26,429 nt of DNA from a virus. Positions 459 to 23,998 of the stretch are shown piece by piece (within the stretch, counting starts at the first letter, position 1; each line of letters opens with the position of its first letter). The notes under the pieces were generated by a model. That model saw only the letters and a list, made by a program, of their open reading frames with translations, did not search any database and was not told where the DNA came from. The translations under genes were made by a program, and so were the position numbers. Where the stretch lies: IMG/VR virus record IMGVR_UViG_3300011187_000049, positions 1 to 26,429 of that record; one strand, written 5' to 3'.

Positions 459-2765
459 ATGTCTAACAAAATCAAGTCGCCCAATACAGTATTTACAGAA
501 ACGGACAAATCTCAAACGTTTCAGGCACCGGAAATTACAGATTTTGTTGTTATTGGTAGAACTCCTAAAGGGAGATGCTACGTACCAACTATTGTAGAAA
601 ATTACCAACAATATTCAAAATATTTTGGTGGTGTATCACGAAATGAATATACCGGAATAACAGTAAAAGAAACATTATTAGATGCAGATTCTATCGCTGT
701 AGTATCGATTGGTGGTACTGAGGATTATGATCTGGATCATGTATTTGAAATTACACAGAGTGGTTCAACACTTGCACAATTATATTTATCAGCAGAAGGT
801 ATAGCACAAGGTATTACTTCTGCATCTTTTGGTGTTAATGACGAAGCTGGAAATTTGGATTTAAAATTCTTTTCCGGTTCAACTGAAGTAGCTGAAGTTA
901 CGGGAATCTCCTTATTTGTGGCTGATGAAGATAAATATATCGGAAATTATGATAATCCATTAGCAGAAAACAATTTATTCTATACAAAATATAAGGTAGA
1001 TTTAACTGATGCTGGATTGGATGGTTCTGGTAGTGTTGGTACTACATTTTCTGATACAGATTCGGTAAATATTTACAATTTGGCGGGTTCAACTACTTAT
1101 GGTAAGTATGATGAGGGTGAAACTCCATGGGTTGTATCACAAACAATTTCTAATGCGAATTATAAACTATTTAAATTTGAAACATTGGCACATGGCGATC
1201 AAGCTAATCGTGATGTAAAAATTTCAGTCATAAATGTACGTTCAGCATCAGATTTAGATATCGATGATAATGATTTTGGATTATTTGATGTATTAGTTAG
1301 AGATTATTCTGATACTGATAATGAACCAGTAGCATTAGAACAGTATAATAATTTATCACTTAATCCACAAAGCGTCAATTATATTGCTCGAAGAATTGGT
1401 GATTTGAAACGTGAATATAATACTGTATCTGGTCAGGTAGAAGAAGATGGAGTTTATGAAAACTCTTCTGAATATATTAGAGTAGTAATGGATTATACGG
1501 ACAAACCAGATGTAGCAATACCATTTGGTTTTGAAGGATATAATTATGCTACAAAATTATATGATCCAAACATTGTTCCGGCTTATATTAAATTTCCTGA
1601 GTCTGGAAGTGGAAATTATAGTGGTGTAGATTTCGATACAACAACATATATTGATGATTTACATAGTGAATTACCAAAATCTACTTCTGAAGGGTTTACA
1701 ACAGCCGATTCCGGATCTACATTTGTATTATCATCAAGTGTAAGTGCGGTACCGGAAGATGATAGAAAATTCACTTTTGGATTCCAAGGTGGATCGATAG
1801 GTATTAATGAAGCTACTGAAAGTTTAATAGGTGTTTCGGCATCCGTAACAAATACATTTGGTTTAAACTTCACGGATACAACATCAGATGGATATTTAGC
1901 GTATAAAAAAGCTATTGATACTGTTAGTGATAAAGAATTATTTAGATTCAAAACATTATCATTGGCTGGGCTGACTCTTAAACAACACGGTAATGTATTT
2001 ACTTATGCTTTTGATATGGCAAAAAGTAGAACACGTGGTGAAATTGTAGTATTGGCAGATCCCACTGAACCGAATTCAAATGGTAAAACTAATGTTTCGG
2101 ATATTGAAACTACAACTAATGGAGCATTTGATTCATCTCACGGATCCGCTATTGCACCATGGTTTTGGTATAATGATTCAGAAATTGGTAGAGTGTTGGC
2201 ACCACAGGGTGCATTGATGCCAAGAACGCTTGCACACAACGATAGAATCTCAGCCCCATGGTATGCCGCTTTTGGCTTCGAACGTGGCGCACAGGGTGGA
2301 TATCGACCTTACACGAGATATAACATCGGACTTCGTGATCGTTTACATGATGCACGTGTAAATTCTGTAATTCAAATTGTTGGTGAACCTTCTCCGGTTG
2401 TTATGAATAACAGAACACTACAACGTAAAGATTCTGCTTTATCATTCTTGAATGTTAGAAGATTGGTTAATGAGGCAAAAATTCAGTTCGATATAATTAC
2501 CAGAAAATATTATGGTCGCCCATTTACTCCGGCTACACGTAATAACTTAGCATCTGAAATAAAAACATATCTTTCACGTGTACAATCTGAAAACGGATTA
2601 GAAACATATGAAGCTATTTTTGATGATTCTGTTCAAACACAACAGTCAACGGATCAGGCAATCATACGTGGTGTTGTATTCTTAGTACCAATTAAAGGTG
2701 TACAGGGAATCGAGATTGGATTTGTTATCGGTAAATCAGGAACAACTTTTGAAGAAAATCGATAA
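459..2765 (+). CDS. Contractile tail sheath protein (gp18-like)
   Basis: This 768-aa protein forms the outer contractile tube of the tail. The N-terminus (FVVIGRTPKGRCYVPTIVEN then YSKYFGG) matches the sheath N-terminal pattern of 'IGxAPKGP...PxLITS...F...FGG'. The C-terminal ~170 residues carry the conserved sheath core: APWYAAFGFERG, LRDRLHDARVNSV, SFLNVRRLVNEA, and a closing strand ending GVQGIEIGFVIG. The middle (~90-480) is variable and rich in Ser, Thr, Asp and Gly, as expected for surface-exposed insertion domains. Length is somewhat above T4 gp18 (659 aa). All four Trp are UGG and the frame has no UGA, unlike the next gene. It ends with TAA closely followed by TAG. The ATG at 459 is the first in frame after the terminator; no Shine-Dalgarno is visible. 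The tail tube follows 46 nt later. Confidence 0.92.
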   Translation: MSNKIKSPNTVFTETDKSQTFQAPEITDFVVIGRTPKGRCYVPTIVENYQQYSKYFGGVSRNEYTGITVKETLLDADSIAVVSIGGTEDYDLDHVFEITQSGSTLAQLYLSAEGIAQGITSASFGVNDEAGNLDLKFFSGSTEVAEVTGISLFVADEDKYIGNYDNPLAENNLFYTKYKVDLTDAGLDGSGSVGTTFSDTDSVNIYNLAGSTTYGKYDEGETPWVVSQTISNANYKLFKFETLAHGDQANRDVKISVINVRSASDLDIDDNDFGLFDVLVRDYSDTDNEPVALEQYNNLSLNPQSVNYIARRIGDLKREYNTVSGQVEEDGVYENSSEYIRVVMDYTDKPDVAIPFGFEGYNYATKLYDPNIVPAYIKFPESGSGNYSGVDFDTTTYIDDLHSELPKSTSEGFTTADSGSTFVLSSSVSAVPEDDRKFTFGFQGGSIGINEATESLIGVSASVTNTFGLNFTDTTSDGYLAYKKAIDTVSDKELFRFKTLSLAGLTLKQHGNVFTYAFDMAKSRTRGEIVVLADPTEPNSNGKTNVSDIETTTNGAFDSSHGSAIAPWFWYNDSEIGRVLAPQGALMPRTLAHNDRISAPWYAAFGFERGAQGGYRPYTRYNIGLRDRLHDARVNSVIQIVGEPSPVVMNNRTLQRKDSALSFLNVRRLVNEAKIQFDIITRKYYGRPFTPATRNNLASEIKTYLSRVQSENGLETYEAIFDDSVQTQQSTDQAIIRGVVFLVPIKGVQGIEIGFVIGKSGTTFEENR

Positions 2766-2811: not shown

Positions 2812-3306
2812 ATGTATATACAACCAGAAGGATTAACAAGGGGTACTCACCAGCTACAAACGAAACACACAAACAGGTTTCTTTTTAGTATCGACGGTGA
2901 TCCTACAACTAAATTGTTAGTTAAAGAAGCGCCCCGACCATCAGTATCATTTGAAGACATCGAAATACCTCATATCAACAAATATAGATATGAAATTGGT
3001 CGTCCACGTTACGAATCATTAAACATTACAATGATGGATTATGTAACTCCATCCACAGCACAATATGTGTCGGCATGATTAGCAACACAAAGTGAAACAT
3101 GGACTGGTAAAATGGGTTATTCCATTTTTTATCGCAGACGTTGCACATTAGAAGTAATGGGTGGTGTTAACGATGTCGTAGAGCGATGGGATTATTTCAA
3201 CTGTCATATCGTCAGCGCTGATTTCGGAACCATGTCATGGGATTCTGAAGAACCAGTACAAATTAATCTCTCAATCCGTTATGATGATTTTATTCATAGA
3301 TTTTAA
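2812..3306 (+). CDS. Tail tube protein (gp19-like) with in-frame UGA=Trp
   Basis: A 164-aa protein, the same size as T4 gp19 (163 aa), directly after the sheath gene as in T4-like phages. It builds the inner tail tube. Under the standard code it breaks at TGA 3076-3078 (codon 89). The frame continues exactly on the other side to TAA at 3304-3306, and the second half (RRCTLEVMGGVNDVVERWDY ... SADFGTMSWDSEEPVQINLS) is the typical tube C-terminal sheet ending in an IxLxIRYD strand. The UGA falls in a helix read as YVSA-W-LATQ, close to the conserved 'FVDW' Trp helix of T4 gp19. The other three Trp (ETW, ERW, MSW) are UGG. I read it as one intact gene with UGA decoded as Trp, not as two genes or a frameshifted pseudogene. 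A strong terminator follows. Confidence 0.9.
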
Positions 3307-3342
3307 ATTGAGTTTTTAAATTAATTCCAATAATCATTATGG

Positions 3343-3374
3343 GGGAATTCATATCATTTGAATTCCCTTTTTTT
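3343..3374 (+). terminator. Rho-independent terminator after tail tube gene
   Basis: Stem GGGAATTC (3343-3350) / GAATTCCC (3360-3367), 9-nt loop, then seven T (3368-3374). It separates the sheath-tube unit from the chaperone/baseplate cluster starting at 3429. Confidence 0.9.
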
Positions 3375-3417
3375 ATTTTTTGACCATATTTAATATTAGA
3401 AACAAAGAAAATTTTAT

Positions 3418-3425
3418 AGAGGAAA
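3418..3425 (+). promoter_or_regulatory. Shine-Dalgarno-like site before 3429 gene
   Basis: AGAGGAAA lies a few nucleotides upstream of ATG 3429 and is one of the few good Shine-Dalgarno-like sequences in the window. Most other starts (for example 7311, 13648, 14634, 16008 and 21648) have only A/T-rich leaders. It supports the chosen start. Confidence 0.5.
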
Positions 3426-3428
3426 TAT

Positions 3429-4250
3429 ATGAACAATATTTTAGGAAAGAAATTCGAAACGCAACGTAACATCAAATATGATACTCCAACTATTGATGAG
3501 AATCAACGAGTAAAAGAAATCCCATTGCCATCGGAAGGTAAGGTATATTCAAAAGATTCATATCTTGCTGATGGTACAATTAAGTTTCGTTATATGAAAG
3601 GTAGAGACGAAGATATGTTCTCTAATCCGGATTATGCAAAAAAGGGTACAACCCTTAATATGTTATTGAAACATTTATGTGTAGATAAAGAATTTGAACC
3701 CAATGATTTAACAGTATCGGATTGGTTATATGCGATTGTAGCTGTTCGAATAATGAATCTGGGTCAGGAAGTTATGGTCAAAGATATAATATGCCCAAAA
3801 TGTGGTGAAAAAAATCCTAAACATACGTTTGAACTTTCTAATATTAAAGAGGGTGAACCAATAGAGGATCCTAAAGTTAAACATAACAATAGATATGAAT
3901 TAAAACTTCCTGTAAGTGGTGAATCTATTGCCATAAAAATATTAGATGGTCATGATATGAGGAACTTTACTGATATATTAGGAAAAATGAATGATAAAAC
4001 GGATAGATTATATACACTAACTACAGCATTGTCTATTATTGAAGCTCCGGTTGAAAATTCTGAACAATTAGGTGAATTATTAGACTATGTAGATAATCTA
4101 CCAATTAGGGATATGAAATATATTCGTTCGACATTAAATGAGATATCAGGCGTGGTAACAGCAAATATAGACTATGAATGCCCTACATGCGAAAATGTTG
4201 TTGATTATACCGTTCCTACAGACGAAACATTTTTTTTTCCTGAACTATAA
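3429..4250 (+). CDS. gp26-like baseplate/tail assembly chaperone with zinc-ribbon cysteines
   Basis: A 273-aa protein resembling the T4 baseplate protein family (gp26 type). The N-terminal third has the family pattern IPLPSEGKVY, then a GTIKFRYMKGRDED strand, then a helical LLKHLCVD ... DWLYAIVAVRIMNLGQE core. Two CxxC pairs, CPKCG near residue 120 and CPTC near the C-terminus, probably bind zinc. In T4, gp26 acts in baseplate hub assembly. Here the gene lies immediately before a second frame and the tape measure, the position of the tail assembly chaperone pair G/GT in many phages. The reading frame ends FFFPEL-TAA just after a run of nine T at 4230-4238, and the +1/-2 frame beyond the run is open with coding character (see slippery site). 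A Shine-Dalgarno-like AGAGGAAA precedes the ATG. Confidence 0.72.
   Translation: MNNILGKKFETQRNIKYDTPTIDENQRVKEIPLPSEGKVYSKDSYLADGTIKFRYMKGRDEDMFSNPDYAKKGTTLNMLLKHLCVDKEFEPNDLTVSDWLYAIVAVRIMNLGQEVMVKDIICPKCGEKNPKHTFELSNIKEGEPIEDPKVKHNNRYELKLPVSGESIAIKILDGHDMRNFTDILGKMNDKTDRLYTLTTALSIIEAPVENSEQLGELLDYVDNLPIRDMKYIRSTLNEISGVVTANIDYECPTCENVVDYTVPTDETFFFPEL
4230..4238 (+). other. T9 slippery run, candidate frameshift or slippage site
   Basis: Nine consecutive T fill three UUU Phe codons four codons before the stop of the 3429 gene. A +1 (or equivalently -2) shift here enters the frame that stays open to TAA at 4453-4455. P-site tRNA-Phe can re-pair on UUU after either shift. RNA polymerase slippage on a homopolymer this long would have the same effect. 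The location, at the end of the gene before the tape measure, is where tail assembly chaperone genes classically frameshift. The predicted fusion is about 341 aa. Functional use is inference. Confidence 0.5.
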
Positions 4251-4278
4251 AAATTTTGAAGAACAATTATATAATTTA

Positions 4279-4455
4279 ATGCATCATGACAATAAAACAT
4301 ATTATGAAATAATGATGATGCCTACCGATGTTAGAATAAATTATATAGACTTCTTAATTAATGTTGGAAAAGAAAAACAAAAACAATACGATGATATTAA
4401 AAGTAAATCATTATCATCGGAACAAACTAATACGACTAATCCAAATATAACATAA
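4279..4455 (+). CDS. Small tail assembly protein or C-terminal extension of upstream chaperone
   Basis: The frame open up to 4455 encodes a short helical, charged domain: NFEEQLYNLMHHDNKTYYEI, then MMMPTDVRINYIDFLI and a Lys/Gln-rich tail. This pattern (LYNL...SYxEIxxMPxxxRxxYIxxLI) recurs in small proteins encoded after gp26-like genes in other T4-like phages, as I recall it. The first ATG after the upstream stop is 4279, which gives 58 aa, but the recognisable segment starts about ten codons earlier (near 4247). An ATG at 4174 is deep inside the upstream gene. This suggests that translation arrives by frameshifting at the T9 run or by an unusual start. It ends with TAA one base before the tape measure ATG. 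Confidence 0.6.
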   Translation: MHHDNKTYYEIMMMPTDVRINYIDFLINVGKEKQKQYDDIKSKSLSSEQTNTTNPNIT

Positions 4456-4456
4456 C

Positions 4457-6958
4457 ATGCCAGCCAGTGAACATTTATCGGGTTTAAACATTTCTTTGGG
4501 GGATTTACCAAATTTAATAAATAAATTTTTTGGTGAAGATGGTGATATGTCGTATGCTGAAGAAATAAATAAAAATAATAAAAGATTAGAAGAATTATCA
4601 TCCAAATTTACCAGTTTTTTGAATTTGGAAAAGAAAGTATTGGATAATAATACTGAGGTTACTAAAATTGCCGAAAGAATATCAAAAAATAATTCGAAAG
4701 AATATAAAATTATAAAAGATTGGGTAAAGAAAAATAGAGCCGATGTTAATTGAAAATCCGGAGATATAAAGGATATACAAGAACAAAGAAAAGCTACCGA
4801 AGAAGCAAGAAAAGTACTTTCGGATATGGCTAAGGAGATTAAAAAATTAAATGAAACAAGATATGAATCGAAATTAAAAGAAGATATATCTACTGCTAAT
4901 GAAGGAAATGAAAGAGGACTTTTTAGTAGATTAAAAGAAAAATATAATGAAAATAAACGTGTAATGTTTCGTGGATTGGCACATATAAAAGGTGTCACCG
5001 GAACTATTGCGGCTATTGCTCATCAATCAACTGTTGCATTAAATAGAATAGACGATTTTGCCGATGAAGGTTTTTTTGCTGAGGATATGTATTCTCAATT
5101 CAAAAAGACAAATAGAAGAACATTAGAAGAAACTGAATTTTTAAAAATGCAGACTTCTGGTTTGAAGCAATTTAAAACAGCAATGAATTTACAGAAGTCG
5201 TTTGGTTTAATGGCAGATTATTCTTCTGAAACATTGGGTAATATTAGTATGTATAATACTAATTTAAATATTGCCAATGATGAAGCTATGAAATATTTAG
5301 AAACCCTTCGAAGTATAACTGGTGAGTCCATAGATCATAATAATGTATTATTACAACAATTAGTAATGGTATCTAAAGATTTAGGTATTTCTTATACCAA
5401 ATTATTAGATACTTTGGGTGAGAATTCTGAATTTTTTGCTAAATATTCCGGTCAAGGTTTAAAAAATACATTACGTGCTGTTACTGCATCACAACAATTA
5501 GGATTAAATTTTGCATCAATAGCCCAATCACTGGATAGTTTAAGTAGTTTAGATGATGTATTACAACGTCAAATGAAAGCTTCTATATTTTTGGGTAAAG
5601 GGTTTAATTTAATGGAAGCGGCTCGTTTTCAATTTGCCGGACAGACTGATAAAGCTATGCGTTCAATAATGGGACAATTGGGATCTATTAGTGATACTAA
5701 GTTTGATCAACCCTTTATGCGTAATATATTGGCAGAACAAACGGGCATATCGGTTCCCGAACTTGTAAAAATGCGTCAAAGAGCGCAAGATCCGGATGCT
5801 ATGAGAACGTTTGATCAAAGATTAAAAATGAATCAAAACCTCGAAGATATTAAAAATGGTATTAATAAAATTGGTTTTGGTAGAATACTTAAATCTTTTA
5901 ATATTAATATTTTAGAACCTATACAAAAAATGTTTGGCGAGGGGGCACCACTCATGAAAGCATTAATTGGTATGGTTGATGGTATATTAATGGGTATAGG
6001 AACATTAATAAAGGTAGTAAATAAAACATTAGGTCTATTTCATAATTGGTTTGGTGAATTTGGTACAACATTGATATTATTGGGTTCATCGGTTGCTGGT
6101 ATTGGAAAATTGTTAAGTAGATTTTGATTTGCAGATGCAGAACGAAATCAATTGTTGCGAGAAATAAGATCCATGATGGCATCATCTTTGGTTACTGATA
6201 CGTTTGGGGGTAATGGTGGTAGTAGATTAAAAAGATTTCATGCATGGGGAATGGGTAGACCGAGAGGAACAAAGGGAATGGGTAGACCGAGAGGAACAAA
6301 TAAATTGGGTAATAAAAAAATGGCACGGGCAAGTGGTTATGGAATGTTGGCGGGAATGGCGGGAATGGCGGCTGGTGGTCTCATGTCAACTTCAGATAAT
6401 GAGGATACTCAATTTTGAGGTTCGGTACTCTCTGGTGCTGGTGCTGGTGCTTCATTTGGTTCCATGTTTGGAGGATGGGGAGCATTAATCGGTGGTATTG
6501 GTGGTGGTATAGCGGGTGGTATAGCGGGTGGATCGGAACATGCTAAAATGAAAGATGGTGGTATTATTCCCGAAGGATTTAAAAATGAAACGTTTAGAGC
6601 GAACTTATCTTCTAATGAAGCTGTTATACCATTAAATTCGGATAGGGGTAAAAACATTTTAACAGATTTCATTGGAAATTTAAAGAATAAAGATGAAAAG
6701 AATGGGGAAATAATTCCCAAAAAATTTGATAAAACTACCTTTGAGGTTAAATATCCAAAAGTGGAAGAAAAAATAACATTAGATTCAGAGAAAGGTCAAA
6801 ATATTATCAATCAAATCGTTGGTGATAATTCAAAAATAATAGAAGCTATAAAAAATATTCCCTTACAATTAACGGTTAAAATTACAAATAAAGAGGATGG
6901 CAGGGATAAAACATTTAAGAAGAATGCCAGATTGAGTAGTGATTTGGTATTAGCTTAA
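4457..6958 (+). CDS. Tail tape measure protein with three in-frame UGA=Trp
   Basis: This 833-aa protein sets tail length and is packed inside the tail tube. Under the standard code it splits into four in-frame pieces at TGA 4751-4753, 6125-6127 and 6416-6418 (codons 99, 557, 654); all are in one frame ending at TAA 6956-6958. Residues ~20-170 are charged and probably coiled coil. The centre is long and helical with few Cys. Hydrophobic helices follow near residues 495-560 (LMKALIGMVDGILMGIGTLI; FGTTLILLGSSVAGIG) and a Gly/Ala-rich stretch near 620-690. The end holds a DGGIIPEGF ... NEAVIPLN motif typical of phage tape measure C-termini. Four Trp are UGG. A duplicated GMGRPRGT motif lies at about residues 598-614. 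Position right after the chaperone genes supports the call. No Shine-Dalgarno is visible; start and upstream stop are one base apart, suggesting coupling. Confidence 0.85.
6248..6300 (+). repeat. 27-bp tandem duplication encoding GMGRPRGT repeats
   Basis: Two copies of a 26-bp identical sequence (6248-6273 and 6275-6300), period 27 bp, lie in frame within the tape measure gene. They encode MGRPRGTKG followed by MGRPRGTN. The copies are identical at DNA level, so the duplication is recent or kept uniform. Confidence 0.9.
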
Positions 6959-7018
6959 AAAAATAATATGATTTATTTATAATTAATAATAAACTTATCA
7001 CATAAAATATATATAAAC

Positions 7019-7282
7019 ATGGCTAAAGAGCTTTCAAGAGTATACGACGAATTATCAGATTTAAGAAAAGGAAAATTACCGTTGGGAGGAACATCACCAG
7101 TAGGAGATGGATGGGGATATGGCGTTTTTGGTACCGAACCGGAACAACCTTCAAATGCGGGGTGGGATAGAAATTTATCCTTTGGTCTTGCAGTAACGGG
7201 TGAAGCATCACAATTTGCCAAAGATCTTATAGCAAGAGCTGAAGATAATTTTGATAATGGTGATGTTTCTACACCATTATAG
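7019..7282 (+). CDS. Small conserved-looking tail-cluster protein, unknown function
   Basis: An 87-aa soluble protein. The N-terminus is helical and charged (ELSRVYDELSDLRKGK); the middle is Gly/Pro-rich with VGDGWGYGVFGTEPEQPS, and the end is a helix FAKDLIARAEDNFDNG. No signal peptide or membrane segment. Both Trp are UGG. It stops with TAG, one of two TAG stops in the window, showing that amber is still a stop. It sits 60 nt after the tape measure and 28 nt before the next small gene, inside the tail/baseplate operon, so a structural or assembly role is likely. I do not recognise the family. The A/T-rich leader before ATG has no Shine-Dalgarno. Confidence 0.7.
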   Translation: MAKELSRVYDELSDLRKGKLPLGGTSPVGDGWGYGVFGTEPEQPSNAGWDRNLSFGLAVTGEASQFAKDLIARAEDNFDNGDVSTPL

Positions 7283-7310
7283 AAGTATCAATTAATCATA
7301 TAAGTAAATA

Positions 7311-7634
7311 ATGTCTTTTAAAGATTTAAAAGATTTATTGGGGGATTATCATACATCGTCAATTAAAAATAGAGAAACGATAGAAGATAGCTATGCCACA
7401 AAATATAATGGTGTAGATAGTAATACTGATAAATATGATAATAATATTGAGGAACGCACCGGAAAATATATCATTGATAAATTATATAATGGTATGAAAG
7501 AAGGTAAAATGAAAGATATTGGTTTAAAAGAGGAAGAAGATGTTAAAGGGTTAAATTATAAGTATTATAAATATTACACTAAAAAACCCGAAACTTCAAA
7601 TAAGACATTTCTATTAATTGGAGAATCTATTTAA
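7311..7634 (+). CDS. Hypothetical Lys/Asp-rich protein in baseplate cluster
   Basis: A 107-aa, highly charged protein with many Lys, Asp, Tyr and Asn (SSIKNRETIEDSYATKYNG; YKYYKYYTKKPE) and no Trp or Cys. No membrane segment or recognisable domain. It ends with TAA three bases before the start of the 7638 gene, so the two are probably translated from one message. Function is unknown; context suggests a baseplate or tail accessory part. Confidence 0.65.
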   Translation: MSFKDLKDLLGDYHTSSIKNRETIEDSYATKYNGVDSNTDKYDNNIEERTGKYIIDKLYNGMKEGKMKDIGLKEEEDVKGLNYKYYKYYTKKPETSNKTFLLIGESI

Positions 7635-7637
7635 CAT

Positions 7638-9611
7638 ATGCCAAGAACAGAGCACACAAAATTTACTGCAACTGAATCAAATAATAAATGGGAACAATTA
7701 TCTGATTTTGCAAGGGATAATCAATCTCATGGTTGAGAAACGTTAGATAAAGAAGTAGATGATTCTGAAGCGTTTGATGAAGATATATTTGATTTTGCTG
7801 AATATATAGCTAATGAATATTTATTTAACGGAGATTTCGTTCTCCAACAACAAAAATTACATTCACTGAATAAATTATCAGGAAAGATATATAATCCGAT
7901 AGGTGTATATGCATCTGCTAAGGATGGATTGGATATTTCTGGTAATAGCAGTATTGATCAATTAACCCAACAAATAGGTTCTGATCTTCTCGGTGGGGGT
8001 GGAGCATTTGATACAACAGATGGAAAAACGTTCGGTACAGTTTTAGACAATGACGCACACGATACATTCTTCCATAGCGTTCGAGAATTTGCCGATGCAA
8101 CGTCTCAGGGTTGAGGGGGATGGCAAGCCTTGGGTGCCACTACGATCAACGCTGTGGGGCAAAGTATTGGATTAAATACACCACACCGTTCTATTATTGC
8201 ACAGGCATTGGCATTTAAAGAATCGAATTTTTCTCCGGCTCACATGTCAGATGATTTCGGAACGAGTGGAATAAAAGTTGAACCATTAGGAGAAAATGCG
8301 TTTCATTTAATATATGGTTTTGGAGAAGATTCACTAAAAGAAGAATTCATTAATTTAATGAAGACGAATTCTCATAGTGATAGTCCAAATTACAAAGTTA
8401 AAAAAGATCAGTCAATAGTAGATTCAGAATTTAAAAAAGAGTCTTTATGAAGTAAAATTAAAACTAATGCTTCAAACGCTATGTTTGGCACTGATATCAC
8501 AAATGATGATTCGGATGCACGGTATTATTTAAATTGAACTGAAGAAGATTCAAAATTTACCAGTACTTTTTATTCATCTTTGTTTTCGGTGGATAATGAT
8601 AATGGATATGTAAATTTTAATACTGATAACAATGTTAAAAATTTTGATAAAATATATGATAGTATTATAAATCCAGATAAGGAAGATGATCCCACTTATG
8701 GTAGTGGTGCGGATTTGGATATTGGAAAAGATGTTTTTTTAAAAAATGATGAAAGAATATTAAAATCATTATCATCTGGATCTGTTAAAAAGATAACTGG
8801 TGAGAATAACGGCACTACGTGGTATCTAAGTGGAGATGAATCTTATTTCAAACCCAAAGATGGATATGATGGTGCTGAAATTAATGATTATACGGGTTTT
8901 AACAATCGATCCGGTAATTCATATTACGATCATAAAGTTATTGGTAGTATTGCATCTAATTATTTAAATACCGAAGTTAATAATTTTAGCAATGATAGAT
9001 TAATAGATGGTGATCCGATATTATCATTGGATGTTGAACAAGAATTAAATGGTGATTTAGAGAATCAAATAATAATGTCTTTTGAAGATGTTCGTAGTGA
9101 ACAAACTATATATTTAAGACCAACCATAGAATCAATTTCTGATGGATATCAAGTAGCTAATGGTGGGGAAGAAGGTTATATCGGCAGAACTGAAATGATA
9201 CCGGAATATCAGCGCACCACCCGTACAATATCATTGAGTTTTACATTATATGCTACTACACCAAAAGAATATTTGATAAATTCAAAAAAGATGATGTTTT
9301 TGAAATCATTAATATATCCAAAAGCAACATCCAAAACCAATTTTTCAACCATAAAAAATCCAATATTCAGATTTTCATTGGGTGATCAATACGTAGATTT
9401 GGGCGGTGTTATTAATAGTTTACAACTCGATCCGGATGTGAATGGTGCATGGGAAACAGCACCAAATTATAGGGGCGCAAAAATTATAAATTCATCTCTT
9501 TCATTTACTGTGATCCACGATGAAATGCCTATGTTGTATGATGGCGAAACATTTGAAGATCAAATTGGTGCTATTAGTAATGGATATATGAATCAACCAG
9601 TGGGGGCATAA
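7638..9611 (+). CDS. Large baseplate protein (tube-cap/gp48-gp54-like C-terminus) with four in-frame UGA=Trp
   Basis: One 657-aa frame from ATG 7638 to TAA 9609-9611, broken under the standard code by TGA at 7734, 8112, 8448 and 8535 (codons 33, 159, 271, 300). Four further Trp are UGG. The N-terminal half has a Gly-rich helix (SDLLGGGGAFD) and SVREFADATSQG-W-GGWQALG, so UGA sits next to a normal UGG Trp. The C-terminal ~220 residues look like a baseplate beta domain: YQRTTRTISLSFTLYATTP, then a helix INSKKMMFLKSLIYP, then a strand FRFSLGDQYVDLGGVI. This pattern recalls the proteins that cap the tube at the baseplate in contractile tails (gp48/gp54 type), but that identity is tentative. The next gene starts three bases after the stop. 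Confidence 0.75.
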
Positions 9612-9613
9612 TA

Positions 9614-9883
9614 ATGAGTTATACACCAAAAACGAGGGTTACATCGGATAAGATTCGAAAAGATGAAACATTTATTTTGGAATCTATACCATTATCAGAT
9701 GATGATATATTTATTGAAATAACTCCATCCACACCACTAACACATATAGCTTCGGAATATTATGATGATCCATCTATGTGAAGAATTATTGCTAAAGTAA
9801 ATAATATCAGTGGCGTATTTTGTAAAAATGCTAAAACAGTTAGAATACCAACAAACGTTAAAATTAAATTTGTAAAGGATTAG
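9614..9883 (+). CDS. LysM-like baseplate wedge protein (gp53-like) with UGA at a conserved Trp
   Basis: An 89-aa protein with the short LysM-like fold used in phage baseplates (T4 gp53, tail protein X relatives). The core reads LTHIASEYYDDPSM-UGA-RIIAKVNNI. In this family the pattern is 'xxIAxxYYGDPxLWWxIAxxN', so UGA (9779-9781, codon 56) falls on the hallmark Trp. It is the only Trp codon in the gene. The closing VRIPTNVKIKFV strand is also typical ('lriPp...'). Under the standard code the product would be cut in the middle of the domain. It ends in TAG (9881-9883) and the next ATG follows one base later. This gene gives the best single-site evidence that UGA is Trp rather than Gly. Confidence 0.85.
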
Positions 9884-9884
9884 A

Positions 9885-12533
9885 ATGAGTGTATATTTTC
9901 ATTTAGATGTTGTAGGGAAACCTTTTTCGAAAGAAGTTCAAAATGAGTTAAACAAGCGCAAAACATTACATCAAATAGATTATGAAACTGAAGCGCCATT
10001 TCACAGACCTTATTTTAAACTTAAAAGGATAACTACGTCTGATTCAAGTGGTTGAGATAATAGGGTAGATAGTGTTAAATATCCTGAAGGTAAACCATTA
10101 AGTGTATTGGGTACGTATAGTGGAGATGAATATAATATTGCTGAAGGATTATTAGATTTAGAACAGCGAGATTCGGAATATAAATTAACTTCGGGTATTA
10201 CCAATGTTACTGTTGATATTACCGATTTCGTATTATTTACGGTCAAAGTAGATTTTTTAATCCCAGATATATCTCAATTTGAAGATTTTAAAAAGATGTG
10301 GCTGGATTTTGGTTTACAGTGTGAATTGGAATGGGGTAGAGCCAGAAATTTTGAGGATTTATCAGAAAAGTCATCACCGGATAAACAGAAAATGGAAGGT
10401 ATTATATCGTATTTTGATTATCAATATCAATCGAATCGCACGATAAAGGGTACATTGACTATTTATTCCAAGACCGCATTGACGCAAATGAGGGGTGGGA
10501 TAATGGAAAAAGAGGAAATGAACATTTTTAAAGAGGTGGTTAAACAATCCTTATTTGATAAAGTATTGACTTCGCAAACAGAAAATATAGAAGTTAATGT
10601 AAAAAATGATTATTCATATGTTTCTATGAAAAAAGAAAGTATTAATAATATTAAAAGAGAATCAAAATTAATTGAGAATAAAAAGATTAGAGGTAAAATA
10701 ATAAGAGATGATGACTTTACTCCCAATACTACGATATATAATTATACGGGATTTTCAGATTATTCTAAAATATTTTATCCAAAAGGTATAGAAGAAGTAG
10801 ATACAGATTTTAAACAACAACAAAAAGATAATAATATAAATGAATTAGTAAAAAAACGTGATGAAGAACGCACATGATTATCTGCTGGTTTAGAACAAAA
10901 AAAGTCTATAGAAGAGGCAAATTGATCTTTGTTTGTTGAAGGTGCCATAAATTTGAGAAGAAAAATGAGCTTTAATTTTCGATTGGGAGTGTGGGTTAAA
11001 GAGAGAAAATATCCGATAAAATCAGTATTTTCAATAAATGCAAAGGATTACTCAGTAAATGAAAAGGAATACTTTTCTATGAAATCTGATATATTACGTT
11101 TTATTCAAGAGCAATCAAATATAATACAAGAACTCAATGATCAAATAAGTGAAATAAAAGAAGAAAGATTAGAAAATGATAATTTATATAAATATTTAAT
11201 ATCCCAATTATCATTGGATGAATCCCAATATTATTCCAAATACTATTATTACGTTTCATTTAAATTTGTTGAACATTTAATGCGGGAGATGGTTTACCGA
11301 AATGAGAAAGAAGTTAATGAAAATGTAGAGAAAAATGAAGATGGGAAAATTATTGCTTCTATATTGAATAGTGATTTTAATTTTTCTGAAGTTGTAGTTA
11401 GAAATTTACAAAACGCCAACTTTTCTTCTATATATCCGGATCGGTGCATTATTAATCCATGGAATGTAACATATTCGACAAAAGATAACCCAAAAAATGA
11501 AAGAGATTTATTTGAAGAAAATGGTAATGGAAATATTACACTATTAAAAGATGTTTATATTTCTATATACGAACTTATGAATATTATCGATGGGGTAGAT
11601 TCAATATATGAATTTGTAGATGAAGTTATAAAAGTAGTGAATAATTCTACGAAGGGAATGATTAATTTAAGAAAGTCGATAGAATATAATGAGAATGAAA
11701 CAGATGATTATATTTCAACGCATATATTAACGATCATCGATCAGTCCATATCTAACTCTATTCAAGAATTAGATAATTTCTATACGTTTGATTTATTCGA
11801 TCCAAGAGAACGCATAAAATCTATTGACGTAGTTACTGATATACCGGATGAATTATCTTCCACCGTATATTTTAAAAACTCAGGAAAAATAATTGATTCC
11901 CATGGCAACATTTATAATAAAGATGGTGCAATGGATTCTGGTATGGGATTATCGATGCCTATTGATAATGAATCCATTATTGAAAAGAATACTAAATTAT
12001 TCGAATCAGTACTTAGGGATGGTATGGAGTATGTACAGGATAGATTATCAGATGTTTACGACTGATCTGATTTTGACCAAGAAAAAAGTTTTGACATATC
12101 GGCTCAATTTTCATATATTTATATGTATTACACTGTATTGTACAAATTATATAGTGTGAGACAATTAAAATATGGAGATAGTGGTTCGGCTATACAAATA
12201 CCCCTTAAAATTTCATTCACATTGGATGGAATAGCAAAAATTATTGCTGGACAGGTATTTAAAGTATCTAATAACTCATTCCCGATAGGTTATAATTTTG
12301 ATAATACGGAATTATGGTCACATTTTTCGGTCATGAATATTAACCATACCATTGCAAATGGTTTATGGAATACCAATATAGAAGCACAACTATATCTCAA
12401 TTTTGATGGCAAACGTGAATTGTCAAGCCAGTTCACAAATTTCGATTCAGTTAGAAATGAATTCGAATCAACAATGCAAAGTATAAGAGATAACATAGGA
12501 GTGTATTTAAATAATGCAACCAATTCAGAATAA
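9885..12533 (+). CDS. Large baseplate (possibly hub-like) protein with four in-frame UGA=Trp
   Basis: A single 882-aa frame to TAA 12531-12533, with UGA at 10053, 10875, 10923 and 12063 (codons 57, 331, 347, 727) and six UGG Trp. The N-terminal ~190 residues include FTVKVDFLIPDISQFEDFKK then a long gap-free LQCELEWGR; the LxVEWGW-type motif is common in baseplate hub proteins (gp27-like) of large phages, so a hub role is possible. Residues ~390-460 look coiled coil (IQEQSNIIQELNDQISEIKE). The C-terminal ~130 residues are beta-rich (IQIPLKISFTLDGIAKII). A Shine-Dalgarno-like AAAGGA lies 5 nt before the ATG. The gene overlaps the next one by 20 nt in a different frame. The hub assignment is uncertain; membership of the tail cluster is firm. 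Confidence 0.72.
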
Positions 12534-13647: not shown

Positions 13648-14544
13648 ATGGGTTTTAGTAAACTACGCAAAAAAGCGAAAGAAAAAGCACAAGGCGGTCT
13701 ATTAGTCAATCTTACAAAAGGCGACAATGATATCCGCATCCTACCTAACAAATATGCTCCGGAACTCGTTTTCGTTGAAGCATGGGTACATTATGCCAAC
13801 TCAGGTATTTCTTCAAAAACATTTTTCTCACCGAAAACTTGGGGTGAAGCCGATCCGGTCTTGGAATTTGTAGAAGAGCAAACAAAAGTAAACCTTCCAA
13901 AAGAAGATTATTTTCGAATCACTAACATGGCACCGAAGCCAGTATATTTAGTACCCGTTGTAAAACGTGGTGTTGAAGAAGAGGGGGTTAAATGGCTTTC
14001 TCTGAGTGGTGGTAAGTGGTATCAGGGTGATCATGAGCCTGAAGGACAGTTTGGTCGTCTAATGGAAAATTACGAAAATGTTTTCCGTAAGAGACTGGCA
14101 CGTGAAGGTGAAGCGGATGTTACTGATATCGAAGAAGGTCATGACTTATTGGTCAAAATCATTCCAAAAGAGGAAACAGATAATGATTACGGAAAAGTTG
14201 AATATCAATTTGATTACGAACGTAGTCATGTACTTCCTGTTGAAATGATTGATACAAAAGAAGGTAAAGAGTTGTTAAATGCTCTTATTAAAGAGCAACC
14301 GGAGTGGGAAAAAATCTACCCACGTTATTCTACTGAAGAAGTTGAGCGCATGTTCGACAAATATATGGAAGCCGATACCGATGACGTAGATGATTCCGAA
14401 TTGGAAGACGATTCTGAGGAAGAAGTAGATACGGTCACTTATGGTGAAGATCAAGTGAATGAGGAAGATGTTCTTGCAAAAGCTGATGAAGTTTTTGATG
14501 GAGATGACTTTGATGAAGAAGATTTCAAATCAGATGATTTTTAA
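13648..14544 (+). CDS. Single-stranded DNA-binding protein (gp32-like)
   Basis: A 298-aa protein with the layout of T4 gp32 (301 aa): a basic N-terminus (KLRKKAKEKAQGG), a central OB-type core (~20-215) with FVEAWVHY, FFSPKTWGEADPV and DYFRITNMAPKPVYLVPVV, and an extremely acidic C-terminal tail of ~65 residues (DDVDDSELEDDSEEEVD ... DDFDEEDFKSDDF). Such tails recruit replication and recombination proteins. Unlike T4 gp32 no clear Cys/His zinc site is visible. All five Trp are UGG. It is separated from UvsX by a strong terminator, so it can be expressed as its own unit, as expected for an abundant protein. Codon use looks less A/T-rich than neighbours, which would fit high expression. Confidence 0.85.
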   Translation: MGFSKLRKKAKEKAQGGLLVNLTKGDNDIRILPNKYAPELVFVEAWVHYANSGISSKTFFSPKTWGEADPVLEFVEEQTKVNLPKEDYFRITNMAPKPVYLVPVVKRGVEEEGVKWLSLSGGKWYQGDHEPEGQFGRLMENYENVFRKRLAREGEADVTDIEEGHDLLVKIIPKEETDNDYGKVEYQFDYERSHVLPVEMIDTKEGKELLNALIKEQPEWEKIYPRYSTEEVERMFDKYMEADTDDVDDSELEDDSEEEVDTVTYGEDQVNEEDVLAKADEVFDGDDFDEEDFKSDDF

Positions 14545-14562
14545 AATCGGATAATATTTACT

Positions 14563-14603
14563 ATGGGGTATGTGTTGCGAAATACCATACCCCATTTTTT
14601 TTT
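14563..14603 (+). terminator. Rho-independent terminator after SSB gene
   Basis: A 10-bp stem ATGGGGTATG (14563-14572) / CATACCCCAT (14586-14595) followed by a nine-T run (14595-14603). It lies 18 nt after the SSB stop. Confidence 0.93.
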
Positions 14604-14633
14604 CTACTTAAATACTTATTTAACAACATTATT

Positions 14634-15938
14634 ATGGTTAAATCTAAAACAAAGAAAAATAATGATTTAATTACTAAATCATTTGAAGAAATAGATGGGG
14701 AACAACAGGAGGAATATTACGAAGAAGTCTATGACTTAATGGACGATACTATTCGTACTATTCAGTCCCAATATAAAGGTTCGGATGCAATGAAAATCGA
14801 TACATTAGAAGCGATGTATTCCGATTTAATGCCAGCCGGATATATTACTACGGGGGATGATCGATTAGATCTTATTATATCTAATAGACCCAAATCCGGT
14901 ACCCCATTATCAAAATTTATTAACTTATTTGGTGATTCGTCATCCGGTAAGTCCTTATTAGCTTCATGTATAGCCGCAGAATTTCAAAAACGGGGTGGCT
15001 ATGTATTATGGTTTGATACTGAAAGAGCCGCATTTCCTCCATTTATGGAAGTATTGGGGGTGCAGAAAAAGAAAACCATTTTTGTTCCTGAAACTCGTAG
15101 TATCGAGAAGATTTTTCAAATTATTCTAAAAACTGTGGTTAATAACAATAAAAGGAATTCGAAAGCTCCATTATTGATTGTTATTGATTCCATGGCTTCA
15201 ACAAATATTGAAGAAGTGGTGGAAAATCTGGATGAAATGAATGCGGGTGGTTATAACTCTGGTGCTCAAAAGCAGAAGATGTTATCCGGTGCCTTTCCAA
15301 AAATTCTCGATCATATCAAAGATGAAAACGTTTCATTCTTAACGATTGATCAATTAAGAGATAATATGGATCGTGCCAACCCATTTTCACCAAGAAAGCG
15401 GGATACATCTGGTAACTCACAGCGATTTTATTCTGATATTCGTATCGAAATGGTTACACGAAAAATCATTAAGAATAAGAAGAAAGAACAAATTGGACAA
15501 ATAGTAAGAGTAACTACAAAGAAAAATAGAATTGCTCCTTCACCAAGAGAAGCAGAGATTTATTTGTATAGTACTCGTGGATTGGATAGATTCGCATCGT
15601 GGATAGATGAATTAAAAAAACAGAAAAAGATTACTCAATATAAGGGTAAATATACTTATACTCTACCTGATGCCGAAGAACCTGTACTTTATGAAGGTGA
15701 TAAGCCTACTGAAGCTCAATTCAAAAAGATGCTTCGATTAAATAAAGAATTCAAAGAAAAGGTATATAATGATTGGTATGGTAAATATATTTTCTCTTAT
15801 GAAAGAAGAGGGGATGATTATTTGGATGATATCCAAGATGAGGTTATATTAGAGGATCCGGAAGATGAAGATGGAAATAAAAAGGAACAACCCACCTTCA
15901 TCAAAAAAAGAACGGATAATTCCGATGAGGAAGAATAA
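14634..15938 (+). CDS. uvsX: RecA/UvsX-like recombinase
   Basis: A 434-aa strand-exchange ATPase. The Walker A loop GDSSSGKS is at about residues 100-107, followed by GGYVLWFDTERA, which carries the catalytic-Glu strand of RecA proteins. The Walker B strand is LLIVIDSMAS. Downstream are a mobile-loop region (NAGGYNSGAQKQKMLSGAFP), FLTIDQLRDN and the C-terminal DNA-binding part, ending in an acidic tail (DNSDEEE). In T4, UvsX drives recombination-dependent replication with gp32 and UvsY. Here it follows the SSB gene and precedes FEN and helicase genes. All three Trp are UGG. An acidic N-terminal stretch of ~60 residues precedes the core. Length is slightly above T4 UvsX (391 aa). Confidence 0.9.
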   Translation: MVKSKTKKNNDLITKSFEEIDGEQQEEYYEEVYDLMDDTIRTIQSQYKGSDAMKIDTLEAMYSDLMPAGYITTGDDRLDLIISNRPKSGTPLSKFINLFGDSSSGKSLLASCIAAEFQKRGGYVLWFDTERAAFPPFMEVLGVQKKKTIFVPETRSIEKIFQIILKTVVNNNKRNSKAPLLIVIDSMASTNIEEVVENLDEMNAGGYNSGAQKQKMLSGAFPKILDHIKDENVSFLTIDQLRDNMDRANPFSPRKRDTSGNSQRFYSDIRIEMVTRKIIKNKKKEQIGQIVRVTTKKNRIAPSPREAEIYLYSTRGLDRFASWIDELKKQKKITQYKGKYTYTLPDAEEPVLYEGDKPTEAQFKKMLRLNKEFKEKVYNDWYGKYIFSYERRGDDYLDDIQDEVILEDPEDEDGNKKEQPTFIKKRTDNSDEEE

Positions 15939-15951
15939 ATAGTTGTTTATT

Positions 15952-15979
15952 AAAGGGATGAGTGAAGTCATCCCTTTTT
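15952..15979 (+). terminator. Rho-independent terminator after uvsX
   Basis: Stem AAAGGGATGA (15952-15961) / TCATCCCTTT (15968-15977) with a 6-nt loop and a T tract to 15979, 13 nt after the stop. Confidence 0.92.
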
Positions 15980-16007
15980 ATTAATCTTATACATTTAAAT
16001 ATTATTT

Positions 16008-17066
16008 ATGGCACGTCGAAATAAAGAAGGACTAAAATCATTACAGGCTCAATACGCCAAATTTAAAAAGAAGAAGAAACAGAAGAAGAATTTACGTCAA
16101 AGTATTTTATTTTTTGACATGATGTATCTGTTCCGTTCTAATTTTGCAGTACGCACTGAAACTACAGAATCCGGTGTACGGGTAGGTGCAACGGTTGGTT
16201 GTTTGAATCATATATCATATATGGTTAAAAAATATCAACCACGAATGGTATTTTGTATTTTTGATGGTGAGAATAACGCAGAGAGAAGGCAGAATTTAAA
16301 TGAAGATTATAAAGCTGATAGGGGTCAGAAACATAAAATGTTGGCTTCCCCATTAACATTGGATGCCGAAGATTCTGAAAATTCTCGAAAATTTCAAAGA
16401 GAGTTATTAATTAAAATTCTTCAACGTCTTCCGGTACATACTATAGAAGTAAATGGTTTAGAAGCTGATGACATTATTGGGTATTTGTGTAAACAATATT
16501 TTACGGGTGATTCAAAAAAGATTATATTTTCAGCCGATAAGGATTTTATTCAACTAATAGATGATAAAACGTTTTGGTTTAATTCTCGTGAAAAAGAAAT
16601 GTATTCATTAGAAAACTATTCAGAATATTTTGATGTACCAATCAAAAATGTTCCATACATGCGTTCTATTCTGGGAGATAGTTCTGATGGGTTAAAGGGT
16701 ATATCCGGTATTGGAGAGAAAACATTATTTAAATTGTTACCGGAAATTAAAGAACAAGAGTTTGAAAGTATTGACGCTTTTTTAGAATTGATTGAAGATA
16801 AAAAGTTGGATCTTGTTAAATCCAAGAAAGGTAAAAGTTTGTATGAAGGGCAACATACTATTCATACAACTCATCAGATTATTCAATTGTCTAATCCTTC
16901 AATGAATAATACACAAGAAAATAAAATAATTGAAATTGCGAAACATAATACGTATAATTCACTCAATAAAAATTATTTAAAGCATTTCTTATATACCAAT
17001 AATTTTTCCGATACAATACGGTATTATAAGTTAGAGACAATTTTTAAACAGTTAAAGCCATTATAA
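16008..17066 (+). CDS. 5'-3' exonuclease / RNase H of the FEN family (T4 Rnh-like)
   Basis: A 352-aa flap endonuclease-like protein that would remove RNA primers and flaps during lagging-strand synthesis. A Lys-rich leader (residues ~17-28) precedes the PIN/FEN core. Acidic metal ligands are visible in order: FFDMMYLF (D37), VFCIFDGENNAERR, GLEADDIIGYL, and FSADKDFIQL. The helix-hairpin-helix follows as DSSDGLKGISGIGEKTLFKL. T4 Rnh is 305 aa. The single Trp (TFWFN) is UGG. It starts after a terminator and its stop is 7 nt before the helicase ATG, so the two are co-transcribed. The first in-frame ATG after the terminator was chosen. Confidence 0.88.
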   Translation: MARRNKEGLKSLQAQYAKFKKKKKQKKNLRQSILFFDMMYLFRSNFAVRTETTESGVRVGATVGCLNHISYMVKKYQPRMVFCIFDGENNAERRQNLNEDYKADRGQKHKMLASPLTLDAEDSENSRKFQRELLIKILQRLPVHTIEVNGLEADDIIGYLCKQYFTGDSKKIIFSADKDFIQLIDDKTFWFNSREKEMYSLENYSEYFDVPIKNVPYMRSILGDSSDGLKGISGIGEKTLFKLLPEIKEQEFESIDAFLELIEDKKLDLVKSKKGKSLYEGQHTIHTTHQIIQLSNPSMNNTQENKIIEIAKHNTYNSLNKNYLKHFLYTNNFSDTIRYYKLETIFKQLKPL

Positions 17067-17073
17067 AAACTTA

Positions 17074-18471
17074 ATGAGTGATAAAAGATTTGAACATGGA
17101 CAAACATACGAAATAAAAATATTAGCCAATGCAATTAATGATGAAGAATTTCTAATTAGAATAATTGATCCATTAGATCCGGAATATTTCACATTTACCG
17201 AGCATGAGTGGATGATGGAATTTATACGTGATTATTTCTTGCAATATTCTTCTATGCCCACATTTGAAACGGCTGTGTTAGAAATGAAAACGCAGAAGTT
17301 GCGTAAACAAGTGCGGGATCCCATTGTATTATTAGCTAATAAAATATTTCGTAAAACCAAAAATTTCGTTCAGGATGGTGAAAGAATTCAAGAAAGTGCT
17401 ATTGAATTTTGTAAAGCCAGAGCGTATGAACAAGCTACTATTAAAAGTGCAGAGTTAGTAGAATTTGGTAAATTTGATGAGATTAATCATATATGGGAAC
17501 AAGCCCGATTAGTGGGTGAGAAAATATATATGGGTGTCGACATTGATGATATCGAAGACAGAAAAAATAATGAAGTGCGTGAAAATTTACGTCCATTATT
17601 TTCTGAAGCTTTAACGAAGAGAATGAATGGTGGTATCGGCAGGGGTGAATTCATTGTTATAATAGCACCTATGGGAGCAGGTAAAACCATGCTGGCTTCC
17701 CGTCAGGCGGCTTTCAATAGAGTTTATGGCACCAACACATTACTTGTATCATTGGAAGTCGGCTCACGCAAAATACGACAGCGTATTGATACGTGTTTAT
17801 TGGATTCTGATCTGGATTATACAAGAGATTCGAAAACATATACCGAAGAAATAAGCAATAGATTAAACATTCTAAACAATGGTTGTAAAGTATACGTTGA
17901 GAAACATTCAGCATCGGGAACTACTGCCTCTACTATCCGTAACAGGTTGAAAATACTTAAATCAAAAGGTATTGAAATAGAACAGGTAGTTATTGATTAC
18001 TTAGATGTTATGGACTGTGTGGATCCCAAACTCAATTATAAAAAAGATTGGGAAAAATTCGAATATATATCTCGTGATCTATATAATATGGGACAGGAAA
18101 TGGGAATAGGTATTATTGGATTAGTACAGGGTAATACTACATCTATTGATTTGGAGGTTATAACTGCAAAATCAACTTCTGGTGGTGCTAAACGATTACA
18201 TCCGGCTGATGCTATTCTTGGTTATGCCAGACCACCACATTTCAAGGAACAGGAACGTGCAAACTTCTCATTTATTAAAAATAGATTTGGAAAGGATGGT
18301 TTTGTATTACCTGTTAAAACAAATTATGACAAAGTTATGATAGATGTGGGGGATGCCGAGTCATATATTATGGACGATTCAAGATCCAAAGATGAAGTAA
18401 ATGATGCGGTGACAGAGCGTTACAAAAAATTTAAAGAAAAGAAAGAAAGAGAAGAATTCTTTCAAATATAA
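17074..18471 (+). CDS. Replicative DNA helicase (DnaB-like, gp41-type)
   Basis: A 465-aa hexameric helicase. The N-terminal ~180 residues are helical (domain for primase/loader contact). The RecA-like motor has Walker A APMGAGKT at residues 198-205, then LLVSLEVGSRKIRQRIDT (motif with the catalytic Glu), Walker B EQVVIDYLDVMDC, GIIGLVQGN and an SGGAKRLHPADAILGYAR segment matching the arginine-finger/H4 region of DnaB-family helicases. T4 gp41 is 475 aa. All three Trp are UGG. It lies 7 nt after the FEN gene. No primase gene is seen in the window. Two hairpins follow the stop. Confidence 0.9.
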   Translation: MSDKRFEHGQTYEIKILANAINDEEFLIRIIDPLDPEYFTFTEHEWMMEFIRDYFLQYSSMPTFETAVLEMKTQKLRKQVRDPIVLLANKIFRKTKNFVQDGERIQESAIEFCKARAYEQATIKSAELVEFGKFDEINHIWEQARLVGEKIYMGVDIDDIEDRKNNEVRENLRPLFSEALTKRMNGGIGRGEFIVIIAPMGAGKTMLASRQAAFNRVYGTNTLLVSLEVGSRKIRQRIDTCLLDSDLDYTRDSKTYTEEISNRLNILNNGCKVYVEKHSASGTTASTIRNRLKILKSKGIEIEQVVIDYLDVMDCVDPKLNYKKDWEKFEYISRDLYNMGQEMGIGIIGLVQGNTTSIDLEVITAKSTSGGAKRLHPADAILGYARPPHFKEQERANFSFIKNRFGKDGFVLPVKTNYDKVMIDVGDAESYIMDDSRSKDEVNDAVTERYKKFKEKKEREEFFQI

Positions 18472-18494
18472 TTTTACAAAATAGTTCCACTTTT

Positions 18495-18528
18495 AATATG
18501 ACAATTTGGTAGCCCGAATTGTCATATT
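18495..18528 (+). terminator. Long hairpin after helicase gene
   Basis: A perfect 12-bp stem AATATGACAATT (18495-18506) / AATTGTCATATT (18517-18528), extendable by three more pairs (one T-G) to a TAGC tetraloop. It lacks a proper T run (TTTGCG), so termination would be weak or need processing. Confidence 0.6.
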
Positions 18529-18544
18529 TGCGTTATGGGATATA

Positions 18545-18569
18545 GTGATATTTTGATATTTAATATCAC
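18545..18569 (+). other. Second hairpin in helicase-nrdJ gap
   Basis: Stem GTGATATT (18545-18552) / AATATCAC (18562-18569) with a 9-nt loop, 36 nt before the RNR start. It could be part of the leader of the RNR message or a weak terminator. Confidence 0.5.
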
Positions 18570-18605
18570 CTAAATTATTAAAAGACATTAAAGAAAAAAA
18601 AACAT

Positions 18606-23548: not shown

Positions 23549-23998
23549 TTATTTGGCTTTTTGGTAATGGGAGTATTTACTACCAATATTACCGAAGAAA
23601 AAGACACCAATATTCATTCATGTAAATTCAGATCATATATTTATTAATTCAGTAACATGTTCGAAATTATTGTAATACTCATATATCTGAGTTAATACGG
23701 CTACAGTTACAAACAACTGCAAGTATTTAAATATTTTATATTTTCTGGATTTTACTTTTTCTGATAGAGGAACTATGGGTGTTTCTTTATCAGAATTTTT
23801 GTTGTTTAATACCTTAACTGAAATGTTAGCTGAAGAGTATAGAGCTACATTCTTTCATGTAAACTCAATTCAGGCATCAAATAAAATGGGTACATCTTTA
23901 AATGCACCCGTGGATATAAAGAACACTACAATATTAAATATGGTAAAGCCAATTTGTAGAATTAAGAATCATCGATATTTTAAAGAGTTATTCTTCAT
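23549..23998 (-). CDS. Hidden membrane protein, all five Trp encoded by UGA
   Basis: This 149-aa gene is seen only if UGA is read as sense. On the minus strand ATG 23998-23996 runs to TAA 23551-23549 with UGA at codons 10, 43, 48, 122 and 127 and no UGG at all. The N-terminus is KYR-W-FLILQIGFTIFNIVV, a strong membrane helix (~10-30). A second hydrophobic stretch is KYLQLFVTVAVLTQIY (~91-106) and a third lies near 128-138 (MNIGVFFFGNIG). Between them are IEFT-W-KNVALYSSANISV and a Lys-rich loop. It overlaps the end of the upstream 237-aa gene by 11 nt, so it is co-translated, and faces the dNMP kinase tail to tail. A holin-like or other envelope role is possible but unproven. A plus-strand frame at 23775-24017 is its shadow. 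Confidence 0.75.

Follow-up and report, generated by a model that had tools for sequence, protein, structure and literature searches.

Recoded phages and related tRNAs

The reading of UGA as tryptophan in phage late genes is already known from the crAss-like phages, in which TGA-to-Trp reassignment is found mostly in late genes, suppressor tRNAs are present, and changes of code span only short evolutionary distances (Yutin et al. 2021, PMC7886860). The same authors suppose that suppressors too divergent for detection may exist. For the code-4 gut phages of Borges et al. 2022 (as cited in PMC10746230 and PMC10879173), an over-representation of recoded stops in structural and lysis genes is reported and a UCA suppressor tRNA is proposed, and some of these phages carry TrpRS and RF1. 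A UCA suppressor was detectable in just 11 of 73 phages predicted as table 4 (PMC11210395). A different solution is a tRNA-Trp(CCA) with a 4-bp anticodon stem, in which the CCA anticodon itself reads UGA (PMC13092985).

The locus described here shares with the crAss-like phages the use of TGA for Trp mostly in late genes, a putative suppressor tRNA, and inteins nearby, but it belongs to a T4-like lineage with a contractile tail, and its candidate suppressor has two anticodon arms. As in the code-4 gut phages of Borges et al., recoded stops occur in structural genes and a UCA tRNA is present, while, unlike in some of those phages, TrpRS and RF1 are not seen in 42 kb. The lack of UGA in the core virion genes of the present phage is a further difference from those phages. 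A literature search that covered few subscription journals returned no description of a tRNA with two anticodon arms, and a T4-like case with such a suppressor appears to be new.

The virus and its relatives

The window analysed here (26,429 bases) comprises an entire IMG/VR record and is a fragment of a T4-like phage. The virus is known only from metagenomes, in which three further contigs were found (L008/L002, L009/L004, and L003). L008/L002 overlaps the window and extends 14.0 kb upstream, and L009/L004 extends 1.6 kb downstream. The upstream part is also represented, at 99.6% identity, by contig L316 of a further sample. In total ~42 kb of the virus is known, and the full genome is probably longer than 100 kb.

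The window begins with the tail sheath, the tail tube, and a baseplate-hub-like protein, followed by a tail block of ~9 kb and then by the replication and nucleotide genes. The sheath (459..2765, plus strand; phrog_23, E = 4.2e-23), a core virion gene, is UGA-free and has four UGG codons. The genes for the single-strand binding protein, UvsX, exonuclease, replicative helicase, and ribonucleotide reductase lie in this order at 13648..20825 on the plus strand, with 24 UGG and no UGA. They are followed on the same strand by the UGA-free genes of a deoxynucleoside monophosphate kinase (22602..23546, phrog_139) and a UvsW-like helicase (25006..26427, phrog_62), the latter complete on L009:13953-15635. 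Together with the overlapping contigs, the window holds a T4-type set of portal, capsid, prohead protease, sheath, tube, UvsX, and helicase, and the T4-like character of the first six bears out the preliminary description of a contractile-tailed phage.

The nearest isolates are Flavobacterium and Microcystis phages. Scans with single proteins returned only the same virus, and the tube alignment was too divergent for use as a scan query. A collinear relative was reached via the terminase, namely the 40.6-kb contig G006 (L285/L286), which is collinear across nearly the whole region. The G006 homologues of the recoded genes are open without in-frame TGA, and the recoding is therefore local to the present lineage. 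The in-frame stops that do occur in relatives are mostly shadow frames or C-terminal overruns. TGA is already a rare stop in the relatives (1/27 genes in G006, 2/31 in immuto, and 3/32 in Mel-JY01), so that codon capture would be easier. Since the recoded phage can be paired with a collinear relative that keeps the standard code, the origin of a codon reassignment can be studied directly.

In-frame UGA codons

The starting claim was that five tail genes are interrupted by 13 in-frame TGA codons and end in TAA or TAG. All 13 were confirmed, with no in-frame TAA or TAG, and the terminal codons are, in order, TAA, TAA, TAA, TAG, and TAA. All five genes are on the plus strand. The gp19-like tail tube protein (2812..3306; 164 aa; phrog_4542 tail tube, E = 2.9e-20) has one UGA at 3076 (residue 89). 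A large tail protein of 833 aa in the tape-measure position (4457..6958; UGA at 4751, 6125, and 6416) is collinear with the immuto tape measure and matches an 856-aa gene of G006 (E = 1.5e-67). The 657-aa tail/baseplate protein (7638..9611; UGA at 7734, 8112, 8448, and 8535) has a collinear G006 homologue of 654 aa with no TGA, and the G006 homologue of the 882-aa baseplate protein (9885..12533; UGA at 10053, 10875, 10923, and 12063) has 844 aa, also without TGA. Between these two lies a small tail protein of 89 aa (9614..9883; UGA at 9779, residue 56), LysM-like by eye, which has no match in Pfam. The rejoined products have the length of their families, as in the 164-aa tube, being full length and collinear with intact relatives.

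TGA accounts for 33% of the stop trinucleotides in the window, so that 13 out of 13 would arise by chance with a probability of ~5e-7, before the 2,600 open codons are counted. With a simple ORF measure, coverage rises from 0.706 to 0.855 when TGA is sense and only to 0.728 when TAG is sense. Readthrough of TAG or TAA was rejected. The standard-code relatives Mel-JY01 and immuto show no gain from the same change (0.950 to 0.934 and 0.909 to 0.904, respectively). The codons at 3076, 4751, 6125, 6416, and 12063 are also TGA in L002, L003, and L004; these five are the ones that the other assemblies cover, the remaining eight being seen in the window alone. The upstream TGAs on L008 are likewise TGA in other assemblies.

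The preliminary description confined the recoding to the tail genes, which is too narrow, since minus-strand genes and upstream genes on L008 also carry TGA. The minus-strand genes encode a membrane-type protein of 149 aa (23549..23998; five UGA, no UGG; G006 homologue, E = 3.8e-19), a 237-aa protein with an N-terminal hydrophobic helix (23988..24701; three UGA, no UGG), and an 84-aa protein (24710..24964; one UGA, two UGG). The 237-aa protein is a possible holin; a homologue search with it was empty, and its structure model is of low confidence (pLDDT 41.8). As a stop, UGA is nearly absent, with 35 of 36 genes ending in TAA or TAG. The only candidate is the gene at 22123-22434, which may end at the TGA at 22417 (22123-22419, 98 aa) or continue for five codons to a TAG (103 aa).

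The residue opposite UGA

In-frame UGA stands at Trp positions. In alignments with the nearest standard-code relatives (G006 and three others), UGA faces Trp at 12 of 18 sites, Tyr at two, and Ala, Arg, Met, and Ser at one each. The 18 sites are those for which a relative could be aligned, a condition that excludes, among others, four UGAs in the proteins of 237 and 882 aa. The UGG codons of the phage itself are opposite Trp in 47 of 70 cases and thus show an equal rate of two-thirds. The log-odds for the residue (in nats) are 40.1 for Trp and 9.9 for Tyr, as compared with -11.1 for Gly, -11.8 for Ser, and -10.5 for Cys. Gly, Ser, and Cys were rejected on these values, and code 25, in which UGA is Gly, finds Gly at none of the 18 sites.

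In the tail tube, all 15 related loci have Trp at residue 89. Mel-JY01, immuto, RM378, and two uncultured phages likewise have Trp there, and Gln is found in two remote Agrobacterium/Sinorhizobium phages. Residue 95 of the prohead protease is Trp in 122 of 140 loci, the rest being mostly Phe or Thr. In the 89-aa protein, residue 56 is opposite Trp in both immuto and G006. Against G006, residues 271 and 300 of the 657-aa protein face Trp, residue 33 faces Tyr, and residue 159 faces a gap; in the 882-aa protein, residue 57 faces Trp and residue 727 Ser; and in the 149-aa protein, four of the five UGAs face Trp and one Tyr. The non-Trp sites fall mainly in poorly aligned stretches, chiefly in the protein at the tape-measure position, whose three UGAs face Ala, Arg, and Met.

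Uneven use of UGA

The use of UGA is uneven across the genes. Its share of the Trp codons is 0/36 in the replication genes, 0/28 in the terminase, portal, major capsid, and sheath genes, 18/50 in the other late genes, and 14/14 in a peripheral group of four genes (positions 1-339 and 344-1117 of L008; positions 23549-23998 and 23988-24701 of the window). The difference between replication (0/36) and late genes (18/78) has a Fisher p of 6.7e-4, and that between the core virion genes and the other late genes has a p of 1.3e-4. Composition is not the cause, since the bias toward A-ending codons is similar in replication (0.75) and late (0.79) genes. The earlier claim of code-4-like usage thus holds for UGA as Trp, but a genome-wide code 4 is too broad, the replication and core virion genes being UGA-free.

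The absence of UGA from the replication genes is in line with a published proposal in which recoded stops delay late genes until the suppressor builds up. Timing does not account for its absence from the core virion genes; one possible reason is that inefficient decoding may be intolerable in core assembly genes. The T4 late promoter motif TATAAATA shows no clear association with the recoded genes.

A candidate suppressor tRNA with two anticodon arms

A covariance search identified a candidate tRNA gene outside the window, on the overlapping contig L008. The 111-nt gene (L008:1151-1261) is located in the late-gene block, ~12.8 kb upstream of window base 1, and its body (L008:1151-1257) is followed by GCCA, that is, G73 and an encoded CCA. 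The match to the Rfam tRNA-Sec model RF01852 has 35 bits (E = 0.0035 in 63 kb), below the gathering score of 47 bits, and ARAGORN did not report the tRNA. The acceptor stem is a perfect 7 bp (ACGGGUG/CACCCGU; in DNA ACGGGTG/CACCCGT) with A1-U72, the T stem has 5 bp and the loop UUCGAAU, and the 5-bp anticodon stem carries the loop CUUCAAA, which gives the anticodon UCA. The 35-nt variable region contains a further hairpin, GCGGU-GUCCAAA-GCCGU, whose loop bears the CCA anticodon of Trp. The predicted folding energies are -34.9 kcal/mol with the UCA arm in the canonical position and -30.9 kcal/mol with the CCA arm there, so that the best fold has UCA in place of the single canonical CCA arm of a tRNA-Trp. 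With shuffled variable regions the CCA arm arises in 76 of 200,000, a somewhat flattering figure because the arm was noticed before being tested.

The UCA anticodon, 6-bp D stem, and long variable region are shared with tRNA-Sec (RF01852) and the tRNASec-like tRNAs, including allo-tRNAs (PMC7609411). Unlike these, the present tRNA has A1-U72, Trp-type ends, a second arm in the variable region, and an acceptor-T stack of 7/5, not the 13-bp 8/5 stack of tRNA-Sec. With the tRNA-Trp of PMC13092985 it shares a non-standard tRNA-Trp architecture tied to UGA as Trp, but here the UCA arm is separate and fully paired.

The tRNA is identical in L316, from another sample, which says little on constraint since the overall identity is already 99.6%. 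A structural scan of 7.6 Mb on both strands found, besides this tRNA, only true selC-type tRNAs, and the 26 matches of the last viral scan were the same virus twice and otherwise selC-type tRNA-Sec sequences. A search with the two-arm pattern in 396 genomes from the phylum to which a Flavobacteriaceae MAG belongs gave four matches; when the matched strings were inspected, none had two anticodon arms, and one was an ordinary tRNA-Trp. The UCA-type gene is absent from the standard-code relatives G004, G006, and L205, no tRNA being found in the stretches searched.

The ancestry of the tRNA looks Trp-like. All 29 Bacteroidota tRNA-Trp genes compared begin with A, and several have exactly the same acceptor stem, while the selC tRNA of E. 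coli begins with G. The stem of the CCA arm is exactly that of the tRNA-Trp of Mycobacterium phage Reindeer. In blastn searches with the region, phage tRNA-Trp genes align from the CCA arm to the CCA end (best E = 2e-5), and with the whole tRNA against phages and plasmids only the Trp-type 3' half matched. Based on the similarities in acceptor, CCA arm, and blastn, we infer that the gene may be a tRNA-Trp with an additional D-anticodon unit bearing UCA, gained by internal duplication or fusion. It may be a case of the suppressors too divergent to detect that were supposed in PMC7886860. A suppressor that is invisible to ARAGORN and lies beside recoded genes would give a concrete reason for part of the gap in detection (11/73) and a template for finding others, and similar tRNAs overlooked by standard finders could account for those code-4 phages in which a suppressor has not been detected.

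Proposed mechanism and alternatives

It is likely that this T4-like phage reads UGA as Trp in part of its genome by means of its own tRNA encoded on L008. In this mechanism, a Bacteroidota-type tRNA-Trp with an additional UCA anticodon arm would be transcribed and charged with Trp by the TrpRS of a host with the standard code, through the Trp-type acceptor (A1-U72, G73) and perhaps also the CCA arm. The UCA arm would then decode UGA, outcompeting RF2. Genes expressed before the tRNA accumulates, presumably those of replication, could not afford UGA, while late genes could.

TrpRS reads the CCA anticodon of tRNA-Trp. A bipartite adaptor can thus be envisaged, in which charging by the host TrpRS would be ensured by the CCA arm together with A1-U72 and G73, and the UCA arm would read UGA on the ribosome. 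We put this forward tentatively, as a possibility that is rather doubtful at present. Such an adaptor would avoid the weakened TrpRS recognition that usually follows a change of the anticodon from CCA to UCA, and, should both arms be functional, charging would be uncoupled from decoding within one tRNA in a way that is new.

A decoder other than the two-arm tRNA is unlikely. UGA would still be Trp, read by a host tRNA or one encoded elsewhere in the phage genome, and the two-arm tRNA would be decayed or unrelated. Its structure is abnormal and it is rejected by ARAGORN, and most of the genome lies beyond the known ~42 kb and may encode a further tRNA, a TrpRS, or an RF1; no TrpRS or RF1 was recognised among the scanned genes of this part. 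However, the helices of the two-arm tRNA are all intact, its CCA is encoded, it has exactly the anticodon needed together with Trp-type ends, and it recurs unchanged in another sample.

A host with a Mycoplasma-type code 4, in which UGA already means Trp and whose code the phage simply shares, is improbable. Such sharing was noted by Cook et al. for many table-4 phages (PMC11210395) and would account for UGA as Trp with no suppressor. On the other hand, 0/64 UGA in the replication and core virion genes is unexpected for an AT-rich phage of a code-4 host, TGA serves the relatives for termination and not as sense, Flavobacterium and Microcystis are the hosts of the nearest isolates, and the ends of the tRNA are Bacteroidota-like.

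The long variable region could attract SerRS, and with the UCA anticodon and the tRNA-Sec-like D stem this would favour charging with serine and UGA as Ser; this reading is highly improbable, as UGA faces Ser at one site and Trp at 12 of the 18, and the first pair is A1-U72, not the G1-C72 of selC. Although tRNA-Sec is the best Rfam match, selenocysteine has a negligible probability in view of the 7/5 stack, the lack of Cys opposite any UGA site, and up to five UGAs in one small gene. Pseudogenes or assembly errors, which have nothing in their favour beyond the presence of stops, are equally implausible: the genes have the full length of their families, intact relatives are collinear with them, all 13 stops are TGA, and the other assemblies agree where they cover them.

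Additional features of the region

The 149-aa protein at 23549-23998 appears to be internally duplicated; a W-x-E-F-T-W motif recurs in it and takes four of the five UGA codons. In the tape-measure gene, a 27-base in-frame stretch (6247-6273, in the repeat MGRPRGT region) is absent from two other assemblies. A possible homing-endonuclease remnant with one in-frame TGA (21186) is located at 21054-21380, in the gap after the reductase gene. The portal gene (L008:5929-8121) contains an intein (Pfam Intein_splicing, E = 1.5e-10), and long in-frame inserts in the G006 prohead protease (4876-6528) and ribonucleotide reductase (28976-33466) are probably inteins as well.

In the relatives, L203 has an in-frame TGA at ~1889, where a near-identical sister has a Leu codon. 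The terminase genes of L202, L203, and L204 all end in TGA, one codon, and a second stop, the TGA being either a terminator backed by the second stop or an initial case of UGA as sense. Finally, the ribonucleotide reductase (18606-20825) shares 52% identity with its counterpart in Rhizobium phage RHph_I1_18, a value far higher than for the other genes in comparison with isolates, and horizontal transfer is likely.
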